In this document: positions 33,803 to 38,443 of the stretch, piece by piece | How positions within the stretch are numbered: position 1 is the stretch's first letter | Layout: every line of letters begins with the position of its first letter | Source of the DNA: Oceanospirillum maris DSM 6286 | GTDB lineage: Bacteria > Pseudomonadota > Gammaproteobacteria > Pseudomonadales > Halomonadaceae | DNA length: 42,470 nucleotides | Assembly: GCF_000422865.1 (NCBI RefSeq) | Contig: NZ_AUGW01000028.1 | Span: 1 to 42,470 of the forward strand | Reading direction: 5' to 3' | Position numbers and translations under genes: made by a program | Notes under the pieces: model-generated | Told to the model about the DNA's origin: nothing | The model's input: the letters and a program-made list of their open reading frames with translations, nothing else | The model's database searches: none

Positions 33803-33929
33803 ATCTTCCTGCTCTTTGCCTACGCCTTCTTTTTACCTCCTTTTTTGTTCCTTGTTCACTCCGGTTGGATAATTTCCATGTAAGTGTTTTTTCTTTTTCG
33901 TGTAAGACATCTCTTATAGACTCTCTCCG

Positions 33930-33943
33930 TTGTTGTAGATCAA
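33930..33943 (+). promoter_or_regulatory. FNR/ANR-like box upstream of the di-iron protein operon
   Basis: TTGTT-GTAG-ATCAA matches the FNR/ANR consensus TTGAT-N4-ATCAA at nine of ten fixed positions. Two -10 candidates follow. TTAAAT (33966-33971) would put the box at -41.5. A perfect TATAAT (33981-33986) would put it near -57. The site suggests low-oxygen control of the genes that follow. Confidence 0.55.
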
Positions 33944-34063
33944 ATTAATTTATCTCAATCTAGTTTTAAATAGATGCCTATATAATTGTGATTTGTGAAT
34001 CTACTGTTTTGCTGACATTTGATCGTCAGCCCTCTCCATTTTGATATAAGGATCTTTTTGGTC

Positions 34064-34837
34064 ATGGTTGATCAGAGCAAAATCCTCTATGAGGACGATG
34101 AGCATCAAGTCGTTTGGTTTGGGTGGGAAGATCTTGAACACGAGTCTTTGGTTCAGTCTAATCAGCTTTTGATTATCAATGCTGATAATGCTTATTTGTT
34201 GGACCCAGGTGGCGCTTTTATTTTTTCTGATGTGGCTACAGAGGTGAGTAAGTATGTGCCTCTAAGCCAGATTCGCTATATTCTCGCAACCCATCAAGAC
34301 CCTGATGTTTTATCCTCAATTACTCTTTGGTTGAAAGCGACCAATGCACGTCTTCTCGTTTCACGTTTGTGGATTCGCTTCGTTTCTCATTTCGGTTTTA
34401 GCGATAACTCACGCTTAGTTGCGATTGAAGACAACGGTAAGCAGATTCGCTTAGGTGAAGATGAATATATCAAGTTGTTGCCAGCTCACTTTTTGCATAG
34501 TGAAGGTAATTTCTGTTTTTATGATACTCGCTCTAAAACGCTTTTCTCCGGTGATATTGGCGCTGCTGTTTTCCCAGGGGGAGAACGATATCTTGAAGTA
34601 GAGGATTGGACGTCTCATTTGACCTATATGGAAGGCTTTCATAAGCGATATATGGGTAATAACGTAGCGACTCGACGATGGGTTGCCAGCGTTCGAGGTC
34701 TAGATATTGAACGCATTGTGCCCCAGCATGGTGCCATTATTCCTAAGCAGTTTGTTCCAGTATTTTTTGATTGGTTAGAAGAGCTGAAGTGTGGCACTGA
34801 CCTACTGGATCAGATTTATGATAATGCGCTGTCCTAA
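34064..34837 (+). CDS. MBL-fold di-iron (ODP/flavodiiron-like) protein, copy 1
   Basis: The 257-aa soluble protein has the metallo-beta-lactamase fold without signal peptide. A full set of di-iron-type ligands is visible. They are His77-x-Asp79-x-Asp81 (ATHQDPDV), His142 (PAHFLHSEGNF), Asp164 (FSGDIGAA) and His222 (VPQHGA). This pattern, with acid in place of the second His of hydrolytic HxHxDH enzymes, is that of flavodiiron proteins and the oxygen-binding di-iron protein (ODP) family, which has been linked to chemotactic oxygen sensing. There is no flavodoxin domain, so NO or O2 reductase activity as in full flavodiiron proteins is unlikely. ATG 34064 is chosen by alignment with copy 2; AAGGA lies about 11 nt upstream. 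First gene of a three-gene operon. Confidence 0.82.
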   Translation: MVDQSKILYEDDEHQVVWFGWEDLEHESLVQSNQLLIINADNAYLLDPGGAFIFSDVATEVSKYVPLSQIRYILATHQDPDVLSSITLWLKATNARLLVSRLWIRFVSHFGFSDNSRLVAIEDNGKQIRLGEDEYIKLLPAHFLHSEGNFCFYDTRSKTLFSGDIGAAVFPGGERYLEVEDWTSHLTYMEGFHKRYMGNNVATRRWVASVRGLDIERIVPQHGAIIPKQFVPVFFDWLEELKCGTDLLDQIYDNALS

Positions 34838-34882
34838 TGGATTTAGGGCAAAGAACGTAAAACAATAAGAATGAGGTGGGCG

Positions 34883-35677
34883 ATGCCTGAGCAAATTACC
34901 CGAGTTGATGAAAGTAAGGTCCTGTTCGAGGATGATGAGCATCAGGTGGTTTGGTTTGGATGGGAGGAACAGGAAGGTGCTGATTCTTTCGTGCAAACCA
35001 ATCAATGCTTAGTGGTAAATAACGACAAAGGTTATTTCTTTGATCCTGGCGGTACTTATGTTTTCCATCATGTATTGGAAAACATTATGCGAGTAATCAA
35101 TCCGCGCCAGATTCGTTATCTTTTTGCGACGCATCAAGACCCTGATGTTTGTTCTTCTATTCCCTATTGGATGAAAACGACGGATGCGGATTTACTCATT
35201 TCGCGTCTTTGGTTACACTTTGTTTCACACTTTGGGATGGAAGATGTTGAGCGTGTGGTTGCCGTACCCGACGGCGGCGGACGTATCAGTCTCGATACTG
35301 GAGACTACATCTCGATGGTTCCCGCTCACTTTCTGCATAGTGAAGGCAACTTCAGCATCTACGATAGCCGCTCCAAAATTCTCTTTTCTGGTGACATAGG
35401 TGCCGCAATATTTCCACCCGGAAAGAGAACAATGTTTGTGGAAGATTTTGATGAACACCTCCCTTTTATGGAAGGTTTCCACAAACGTTATATGCACAGT
35501 AATGCTGTGTGTGCTCGTTGGGTTGAGCAAATAAGAGCAATGGATATTAAAATGATTGTTCCTCAGCATGGTGCCATCTTCCCTGAAGATCAGATCGAAA
35601 ATTTCTTAAATTGGTTTAGTGAGCTGCGCTGTGGTGGTGATTATATTGAGCAGATCTACAGGGATGAACGCTTTTAA
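34883..35677 (+). CDS. MBL-fold di-iron (ODP/flavodiiron-like) protein, copy 2
   Basis: The 264-aa paralogue of the upstream protein is about half identical by eye and has identical ligand spacing. The ligands are His84-x-Asp86-x-Asp88 (ATHQDPDV), His149 (PAHFLHSEGNF), Asp171 (FSGDIGAA) and His229 (VPQHGA). The shared blocks EDDEHQVVWFGWE, SRLW, FVSHFG and MEGFHKRYM are also unchanged. Both copies look intact, arguing for maintained function, perhaps as a heterodimer or with different oxygen affinities. ATG 34883 is chosen because AGGTGG immediately upstream forms its ribosome site; the ATG at 34871 lies within that site's flank. It starts 45 bp after copy 1 and ends 30 bp before the HD-GYP-type gene. 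No partner domain such as rubredoxin or flavodoxin is fused. Confidence 0.83.
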   Translation: MPEQITRVDESKVLFEDDEHQVVWFGWEEQEGADSFVQTNQCLVVNNDKGYFFDPGGTYVFHHVLENIMRVINPRQIRYLFATHQDPDVCSSIPYWMKTTDADLLISRLWLHFVSHFGMEDVERVVAVPDGGGRISLDTGDYISMVPAHFLHSEGNFSIYDSRSKILFSGDIGAAIFPPGKRTMFVEDFDEHLPFMEGFHKRYMHSNAVCARWVEQIRAMDIKMIVPQHGAIFPEDQIENFLNWFSELRCGGDYIEQIYRDERF

Positions 35678-35707
35678 GAGCTACTAGGCTCAGCAGGATG
35701 TATGCCT

Positions 35708-36895
35708 ATGATCATGAAGGATTTTGAGCTCAGCTCTATTTCATCAGACGAACTTGTGATTAATAAGCCAGTCCCATGGCCGGTTTATGATGAGTTTGGA
35801 AAATTGCTGATGGCTAAAGGTTCAGTGATTAGAACTGAGCGTCAACGCGATATTTTGATGCGCGTTGGGCTTTATGCCCGTGAAATCAGTAACGAAGATG
35901 AAAAAGATGAAAGGCTTAAGCCCGTTAGTTTTAACCGGCAAGTTAACCCTTTTGCAGAATTTGAAGATATTTGCTTAAGGCTTTCTGAGCTGTTTCAGTA
36001 CATTGAGAAAAAAGAGAATCCACCAGAAGATGCGGTTTTTAAGCGGACAATGGGGATTGTTACTTATTTGCAAGGTCTGGTCGCTCATGATGCAGATGCC
36101 ATGATTGGCGCTGTTCATTTAATCGACAGTTTCCCCTACCATATCTTGCACCCTGTCCAGTGCGCTATTTTGAGTGAGGTCATAGCACTGCGATTTGAGA
36201 TTGACCAAGAAAAGCGTTTGTCGATGCTAGCGGCAACACTAACCAGTAACATCTCGATGAATGCCTATCAGGTTAAGCTGCATCAGCAGCGCAAGCCTTT
36301 GACGGAGCAGCAAAGAGAAGTCATTGAGAAGCACCCTGATGTGAGTGCTTCTATGCTAGAAACATCAGGAATTAATGATAGCTATTGGCTTAAGCTCGTT
36401 CGTTGCCACCATGAACGGCCTGATGGTAGTGGGTATCCAAAAGGTTTGAAAGCCGATGCACTCCCTATTGAGGCAAAAATAATTGCTTTGTCGGATGTGT
36501 ACTGTGCCATGGTGACACCGCGGCCATATCGTGAGTCTGTTACTTACAAAGAGACTCTTCGGGAGTTATTTGTGCAGCGTGGGCGAAGTGTTGATGAGCG
36601 GCTAACGACAATTTTCGTTCATGAGCTAGGGCTTTATCCGCCTGGTGTTTATGTGAAGCTGCAAAATGGTGAGCTAGCGGTTGTTGTTGGGCGTACTCAT
36701 AGCCCAAAAGAGCCATTAGTTGCCAGTGTTCGAAAGGCTGACGGTGATATCTTTTTAAACCCTCGTCGTCGAAATACAGGGATTAGGGAGTTTACAATTA
36801 GAGCGACCTGCTTGCAGAAGGAACAAGTCGCGGTGAACCCTGCAGCTCTATGGGGTATACAGGCGCTGCAGGTGCCGAAAAAACGAATGATGTGA
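35708..36895 (+). CDS. HD-GYP-type protein with degenerate HD motif
   Basis: The 395-aa cytoplasmic protein has an N-terminal beta-rich module (about 15-60, PVPWPVYDEFGKLLMAKGSV) of a type often placed before c-di-GMP domains. A helical region and an HD-GYP domain (about 135-310) follow. The GYP part is well kept: His209 (KHPDVS), HHE at 234-236, DGSGYP at 239-244 and Asp264 (LSDVYCAM). The name-giving HD pair, normally in LLHDIGK, reads LTSNIS, i.e. Thr179-Ser180. Metal binding should be impaired, so this may be a c-di-GMP receptor or regulatory protein rather than an active phosphodiesterase. A C-terminal beta domain (about 310-370) is of unknown role. ATG 35708 is 9 nt from AGGA; ATG 35702 is also possible. 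The gene ends exactly where elbB ends on the other strand. Confidence 0.82.
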   Translation: MIMKDFELSSISSDELVINKPVPWPVYDEFGKLLMAKGSVIRTERQRDILMRVGLYAREISNEDEKDERLKPVSFNRQVNPFAEFEDICLRLSELFQYIEKKENPPEDAVFKRTMGIVTYLQGLVAHDADAMIGAVHLIDSFPYHILHPVQCAILSEVIALRFEIDQEKRLSMLAATLTSNISMNAYQVKLHQQRKPLTEQQREVIEKHPDVSASMLETSGINDSYWLKLVRCHHERPDGSGYPKGLKADALPIEAKIIALSDVYCAMVTPRPYRESVTYKETLRELFVQRGRSVDERLTTIFVHELGLYPPGVYVKLQNGELAVVVGRTHSPKEPLVASVRKADGDIFLNPRRRNTGIREFTIRATCLQKEQVAVNPAALWGIQALQVPKKRMM

Positions 36896-37645: not shown

Positions 37646-38443
37646 TTAGGATTTTATTTTTTGCTTTAATGCGGCGCCTAGTAACCAAATAAAATTATTA
37701 GTGGGCAAATCATCTGATTTAGGTTGACCTATCAACATTTTTTGATAGCCGTCTGCTGGCTGAGCGACATAGCTTGAGAAGACTTTATCCCAAATGCTTA
37801 AGTTAAATCCAAAGTTACTGTGCATTTCCTTTGCTTTAGTAGAATGGTGCACTCGGTGCATGTCTGGAGTTACAGCCAGTATGCGTAGCATGCGGTCAAG
37901 GGGTTTAGGTAGGGCTATGTTGGCATGGTTGAATAACGCCATACCATTAAGTAGTATTTCAAATATGATCACGGCCATAGCTGGTGCCCCAAGGAGAATA
38001 ATCGCGATATTTTTGACCAGTATCGACAAGAAAATTTCGATAGGATGGAATCTTAACGCTGTGGATAGGTCATAATCTTTATCGTAATGATGGATGCGAT
38101 GTAGGCGCCACAGGATAGGAATTTGATGAAAAATTCGGTGTTGCCAATAGATTAAACAATCTAAAATAATGACAGAAAAAATGATGGTCAGTGGTGATGG
38201 CAAGCTGATGTTGTTAAATAAACCTAAGCCTTGTTCTTGAGACCAATTTGCGATGGTAACAGGCAGTATCAAAGCAAAAATAAAGCGCATAATTAAGCTA
38301 TCTAGTATCACTAAACCAAAGTTTGTTATCCAACGTTTAGCAACAGACTGATTTGGCTTCCTCCGTGGGAATAACCACTGGCCAAGGCCAAGCATGATAA
38401 TTAGCCCGATAAAAATGGCTAGCCGAATAGTGGATTCTTCCAT
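37646..38443 (-). CDS. Sterol desaturase / fatty acid hydroxylase family protein
   Basis: The 265-aa membrane protein has about four hydrophobic segments (about 5-22, 42-64, 86-101, 146-166). The eight-histidine pattern of the non-haem di-iron hydroxylase family is present: QHRIFH (102,106), RLHRIHH (115,118,119), FNH (173) and MHRVHH (196,199,200) with His208. Such enzymes use O2 to hydroxylate or desaturate lipids, carotenoids or alkylglycerols; the substrate here cannot be told. It is upstream of elbB on the same strand and divergent from hemB. Confidence 0.9.
   Translation of the reverse strand: MEESTIRLAIFIGLIIMLGLGQWLFPRRKPNQSVAKRWITNFGLVILDSLIMRFIFALILPVTIANWSQEQGLGLFNNISLPSPLTIIFSVIILDCLIYWQHRIFHQIPILWRLHRIHHYDKDYDLSTALRFHPIEIFLSILVKNIAIILLGAPAMAVIIFEILLNGMALFNHANIALPKPLDRMLRILAVTPDMHRVHHSTKAKEMHSNFGFNLSIWDKVFSSYVAQPADGYQKMLIGQPKSDDLPTNNFIWLLGAALKQKIKS

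Follow-up and report, generated by a model that had tools for sequence, protein, structure and literature searches.

What would two oxygen-binding di-iron proteins (ODPs) have to do with an HD-GYP-type protein that has lost its HD dyad? The question is raised by three co-directional genes on the plus strand of a 42,470-nt stretch of DNA from Oceanospirillum maris DSM 6286 (contig NZ_AUGW01000028.1, positions 1 to 42,470), referred to below as the window. The genes are separated by 45 and 24 nt and lie between two neighbours that we take to be tatC and elbB, names given by reading and not by a family-library scan. The first two encode ODP1 and ODP2, and the third encodes a protein called xN-GYP here. 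The trio is real and conserved, and it probably constitutes a working O2- and iron-responsive unit of cyclic di-GMP (c-di-GMP) signalling. The reading tentatively favoured is that of a genus-level accessory operon that would link O2/Fe sensing to c-di-GMP signalling through contact between the ODPs and the GYP protein.

Two ODP paralogues with complete ligand sets

A preliminary description of this DNA had recognized two adjacent metallo-β-lactamase-fold genes with full di-iron ligands, which is borne out by their family assignment. Both products match the Pfam family ODP (PF19583), at 2.5e-74 and 3.5e-77 (249.8 and 259.1 bits; cut-off 27.2). ODP1 is 49% identical to the solved ODP 6qrq over 249 positions (E 9.2e-81) and 46% identical to 6qnm over 246 positions (E 1.1e-72). 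The ligand motifs THQDPDV, AHFLH and PQHG, together with [ST]GD, are present in ODP1 and ODP2 of all six Oceanospirillum species. Across 81 aligned ODPs, H77, D79, D81, H145, D164, Q221 and H222 are invariant, and H142 is found in 80. Flavodiiron proteins carry H-x-E-x-D-H as motif 2. This motif is absent from ODP1 and ODP2, which read HQDPDV at that place, and a Pfam scan of the two proteins detected no flavodoxin or rubredoxin domain. Both proteins show the ODP ligand pattern: H-x-D-x-D with the third His of motif 2 missing, then H, D, and Q-H in motif 5. The Gln-for-His swap has been reported for the Thermotoga maritima ODP (PMC7785958; this and the other papers cited below were available in part, and what is drawn from them is limited to those parts), and its presence in the window proteins supports their identity as ODPs.

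A quick tree of the 81 ODPs (midpoint root; two long ODP frames trimmed to their last 270 residues) groups ODP1 and ODP2 into one joint clade on a long stem (support 99, to be read with a long-branch warning). Within it, the ODP1 clade (support 99) and the ODP2 clade (support 97) each contain all six species, so both copies are older than the spread of the sampled species. Species comparisons gave dN (nonsynonymous divergence) values of 0.04-0.16, with dS (synonymous divergence) saturated in 13 of 15 comparisons and standing at 1.9 and 3.6 in the remaining two.

A GYP protein without the HD dyad

The partner had been described as an altered HD-GYP protein, and the alignments agree. It matches Pfam HD_5 at 9.7e-24, S182-N183 is aligned with the H-D of five relatives, and the HHExxDGxGYP motif is intact as HHERPDGSGYP. 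H150, H211, H236, H237 and D265 are retained as well. Among 69 distinct aligned rows including the window protein (74 minus five duplicates; two rows are partial), the second dyad position is N in 59, D in nine and a gap in one, and an intact HD dyad is present in five. The dyad is absent from all six Oceanospirillum species in the alignment. Replacement of HD by xN in 59 of 69 rows makes the loss a trait of the wide family and not decay in one genome. H211, H236, H237, E238, G244 and Y245 are invariant in 69/69 rows, with H150 kept in 42 and D265 in 47.

Two published proteins bear on what such a domain could do. In PmGH, a solved enzyme, changing H221 or D222 to alanine left essentially no activity, and c-di-GMP was observed in complex with the protein when the GYP-side iron was the only iron bound (PMC4159591). 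For PA2572, a YN-GYP protein, c-di-GMP degradation was undetectable (PMC3411652). By analogy, the window protein would not hydrolyse c-di-GMP and may bind it; it is probably a non-hydrolysing c-di-GMP receptor or adaptor.

Two further PDB entries annotated as HD-domain/sensory-box chains match xN-GYP, 9rbz at 2.2e-12 and 9rc0 at 6.1e-12. Both read SQVGK where HDxGK is expected, so each would seem to be a solved protein of GYP type that lacks the HD dyad.

Insertion between tatC and elbB

The same gene order is found in five named Oceanospirillum genomes (loci L004-L008). A genus search for the GYP protein was positive in 6/6 genomes, five of them scoring as L004-L008, which brings the total to six; in every one of these genomes the trio lies between tatC and elbB. 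Ten elbB places were found in relatives and nine fetched, one of which, from the same order only, showed no tatC and was not counted. In the other eight, from four other genera of the family and with both flanks present, tatC and elbB are adjacent, with 45-158 nt between match ends. This empty junction in 8/8 sister-genus loci places the arrival of the trio on, or before, the genus branch. Judged from gene order, the trio is a clean insertion, in keeping with the accessory insert proposed in the preliminary description.

Features of the three-gene unit and its upstream region (window coordinates)
Feature	Position	Strand	Description
ODP1	34064..34837	+	Oxygen-binding di-iron protein family, 257 aa
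ODP2	34883..35677	+	Oxygen-binding di-iron protein family, 264 aa; sister paralogue of ODP1
xN-GYP protein	35702..36895	+	HD-GYP-type domain with S-N in place of the HD dyad; remaining histidines and GYP motif retained
FNR/ANR-type box TTGTT-GTAG-ATCAA	33930..33943	+	TTGTTnnnnATCAA in 6/6 species
-10-like hexamer TTAAAT	33966..33971	+	Centre 32 bp from box centre; would place the box at -41.5
Palindrome TAAGACATCTCTTA	33903..33916		13 nt upstream of the FNR box

Two start codons require comment. ODP1 most likely begins at the ATG listed in the table rather than at a TTG at 34019, and xN-GYP may begin at 35708 instead, where an ATG is common to all six species.

A candidate FNR-type promoter

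The FNR consensus is TTGAT-N4-ATCAA, and class II geometry corresponds to a box centred at -41.5. The window box differs from the consensus by one mismatch (TTGTT). TTGTT-N4-ATCAA occurs upstream of the unit in 6/6 species, in a flank much of which has diverged; relative to the start codon it lies between -124 and -236. A search for -10-like hexamers in the interval 25 to 42 bp past the box centre found one with four or five of six matches to TATAAT at 32.0 bp, centre to centre, in all six. This spacing fits class II FNR geometry and marks a candidate promoter. The genome holds 147 matches to TTGNTN4ATCAA, with palindromes counted on both strands, compared with 22 matches to the reversed pattern. 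A single site thus proves little, and the argument is carried by conservation across species and by the spacing, which together support the FNR-type control suggested by the preliminary description. An FNR-type gene is encoded at about position 53906 of contig C3, one of three Crp-family genes found; its product contains CFHPSKETKCVTCSLSSLC and a further Cys in GIDCETYP, which we read as the FNR-type cysteine cluster. Expression of the three-gene unit is probably induced when oxygen is low.

The palindrome at 33903 is a possible second operator. All six species conserve the stretch TGTAAGAnAT that surrounds its left half. The genome shows no enrichment of the palindrome (11 per strand, 14 for the control), so no regulon is claimed.

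A proposed mechanism

In the tentatively preferred reading, FNR would activate the class II promoter at low O2, and both ODPs and xN-GYP would be made. ODP1 and ODP2, duplicated from one ancestor and with full di-iron sites, would assemble as homo- or heterodimers, and these dimers would change conformation when O2 binds at the di-iron site or Fe(II) is lost. They would contact xN-GYP as the ODPs of chemotaxis contact receptors. The preliminary description had O2 itself being passed to the HD-GYP protein, a wording that finds no support; a published ODP contacts its cognate receptors directly (PMC6978683). Without the HD dyad and with H150, H211, H236, H237, D265 and the GYP loop in place, xN-GYP would take up c-di-GMP or a different effector and leave it unhydrolysed, working in motility or adhesion as a receptor or adaptor gated by the sensors. 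The sequences themselves establish the gene content, the ligand sets, the loss of HD, the insertion, and the box with its spacing and conservation; O2 binding, FNR action, contact with xN-GYP, c-di-GMP binding and the output are inferred. A more specific version, which is possible though doubtful, has an ODP heterodimer gating a dead GYP c-di-GMP receptor by contact; the response to c-di-GMP would be set by O2/Fe(II) with the level of the messenger unchanged, and FNR would limit the system to the vicinity of the anoxic boundary.

If true, a stand-alone di-iron O2 sensor would have switched its target from chemoreceptors to a c-di-GMP protein without enzymatic activity. A defined input would also become available for the widespread HD-GYP relatives that lack the HD dyad, a group for which no recurring partner was seen elsewhere. 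The states before and after insertion are both found within one family, which makes the gain of the system placeable on a branch and testable.

ODP and GYP neighbourhoods outside the genus

Both components occur beyond Oceanospirillum. A class sample of 369 genomes contains an ODP in 73 and an xN-GYP (P0003) relative in 152, both at E 1e-15, the relatives including general HD-GYP domains. In an order sample of 293 genomes, an ODP is found in 63 (E 1e-20) and a P0003 relative in 33 (E 1e-30). The trio was sought in both samples by comparing positions by eye, and 79 ODP loci were inspected together with flanks of at most about 4 kb: 58 of the 103 class places outside the own genome, 20 of 63 order places and the third ODP of the own genome.

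Several observations weigh against the preferred reading. Neither a GYP motif nor a P0003 relative (tblastn) was detected within up to about 4 kb in any of these 79 other ODP loci, the motif search being based on our own pattern, which a diverged GYP gene could escape. Twenty loci with window-type GYP relatives were taken, one of them without a called GYP gene, and in the remaining 19 no recurring same-strand partner was seen by eye. Outside the genus, then, neither partner predicts the other. A structure model of xN-GYP built from six close sequences was poor (mean pLDDT, a per-residue confidence score, 45.3) and unusable. The promoter assignment has competitors as well: the window has an equally scoring hexamer at 31 bp, L006 has two (31 and 43 bp) and L008 has one (35 bp), and a perfect TATAAT at 33981-33986 occurs in the window only, 47 bp from the box centre. 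This last hexamer is beyond the scanned range, in a region where the other species do not align, and would put the box off the class II position. Finally, the target of the ODP pair could be chemotaxis, reached in trans.

The association of the two kinds of protein holds within one genus (6/6) and fails as a general rule, each occurring without the other elsewhere. Homologues lacking the HD-GYP partner, which the preliminary description had named as evidence against its proposal, are what is found outside the genus. An ODP at E 1e-20 was found in 0/11 same-family genomes of other genera. The GYP motif was likewise absent from 28 further ODP loci of a phylum sample (flanks up to 1.5 kb), some genomes of which are shared with the class and order samples. 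Among the 19 GYP-relative loci, four share one kind of convergently oriented gene.

ODPs do have recurring neighbours of other kinds. A simple open reading frame caller yielded 69 ODP genes in 67 of the 79 tblastn-positive loci, and partner counts are out of these 69. Eighteen directly follow one gene family of about 171-259 aa, mostly 200-225 aa, of which one scanned member has a weak MCPsignal match (E 0.025, below the cut-off). The third ODP of the own genome (C1:186110-186823; L128:4108-4839, minus strand) is among the 18. Two ODP genes precede scanned GGDEF-EAL genes (L130:3989-6938 and L134:1265-4146), and a GGDEF motif, identified by motif only, lies on the ODP strand in three of the 28 further loci (L274, L276 and L282). 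Coupling of ODPs to c-di-GMP genes thus recurs; a GYP protein as the partner was encountered in Oceanospirillum alone.

The third ODP has neighbours of its own to report. It lies directly behind a 202-aa gene with a weak match to methyl-accepting chemotaxis protein (MCP) signalling domains, and nearby are a complete MCP gene and another gene that carries GGDEF and EAL motifs.

Alternative explanations

The ODP pair might instead be a chemotaxis aerosensor for a receptor encoded elsewhere, with the xN-GYP gene just co-transcribed. That 18 of 69 ODPs follow a weakly receptor-like gene family, the own third ODP included, speaks for such a role, as does the position of those ODPs and the genus pair on the same side of a branch with support 93, a placement subject to the long-branch warning. 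The own genome, however, already has a receptor-linked ODP at C1:186110-186823, no chemoreceptor-like gene adjoins the window pair, and the xN-GYP gene is attached to it in 6/6 species. This explanation is considered unlikely.

Alternatively, the two proteins may not be sensors, and would act as FNR-induced scavengers of O2, NO or peroxide or as iron handlers, with the job of xN-GYP unrelated. FNR-type control fits detoxification, and there are weak matches to flavodiiron-type proteins; yet both proteins lack a flavodoxin or rubredoxin domain and the flavodiiron-type H-x-E-x-D-H, and the operon contains no third redox gene. Those absences led to the rejection of a plain scavenger as the best reading, and this family of explanations is regarded as quite unlikely.

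That the HD-GYP protein is still a phosphodiesterase using other ligands and switched by the ODPs is improbable and was rejected as the best reading, since, despite the retained H150, H211, H236, H237 and D265 and the intact HD in 5/69 rows, the dyad is missing in 6/6 species and the PmGH alanine mutants were essentially inactive (PMC4159591).

Comparison with known systems

Earlier work has described both inactive GYP proteins and ODPs encoded in operons together with chemoreceptors or further signalling genes. Each component of the unit is thus known, and the combination looks new. In hemerythrin-HD-GYP sensors the domains are fused and are not separate proteins. Bacterial hemerythrin-domain sensors of O2 or redox state include HD-GYP proteins and so likewise join di-iron O2 sensing to an HD-GYP output, with a different di-iron fold (PMC9388753). 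The closest relative on the sensor side is the Treponema denticola ODP, which is coupled to a cytoplasmic chemoreceptor (Muok et al. 2019, known here through citing papers, PMC7666581). It shares the Pfam family and ligand motifs, and the two solved ODPs are the 46-49% identical matches of ODP1. In contrast to that system, the window has two tandem paralogues, a GYP partner in place of a chemoreceptor, and a candidate FNR-type promoter.

ODPs also occur in operons with varied signal-transduction genes or fused to such domains, a comparable recruitment outside chemotaxis; the accessible part of that paper names no HD-GYP partner, whereas the window partner is an HD-GYP-type protein without the HD dyad (PMC7319448). 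PA2572 of Pseudomonas aeruginosa likewise has a GYP domain with HD changed to x-N (PMC3411652). It possesses a receiver domain, whereas Pfam detects none in xN-GYP, for which the proposed input is the separate ODP pair. Among the literature matches listed, at the level of titles and abstract openings and with Muok et al. 2019 not covered, the trio is not described.

Additional observations

Other partners of ODP genes were noted in the surveyed loci. An ODP stands beside one blastp family in four loci (L164:3597-4756, L180, L187 and L146), the scanned member being Roadblock/LC7. In L162:1467-3842 and L182 the ODP is followed by a gene for a TPR Ser/Thr protein kinase with a CHASE2-like stretch (one scanned), and in L139:3155-3985 and L140 by a CheR gene (one of the pair scanned).

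Downstream of elbB, the gene at window positions 37646-38443 is present in 5/5 genus loci and 0/9 loci of relatives; its product presumably resembles a fatty-acid hydroxylase or sterol-desaturase type protein.

The own genome encodes a paralogue of xN-GYP (G000:C8:150257-151432; L127:3764-4957, minus strand) that is 40% identical and in which HD is also changed to x-N. It is followed by a cytochrome c' gene and accompanied by a divergent gene for a cyclic nucleotide-binding-like (cNMP-binding-like) protein, assigned by reading, not by scan. In the sixth genome two contigs each carry part of the paralogue, and in 4/4 further genus loci (L250-L253) the paralogue, cytochrome c' and cNMP-binding-like genes are found together.

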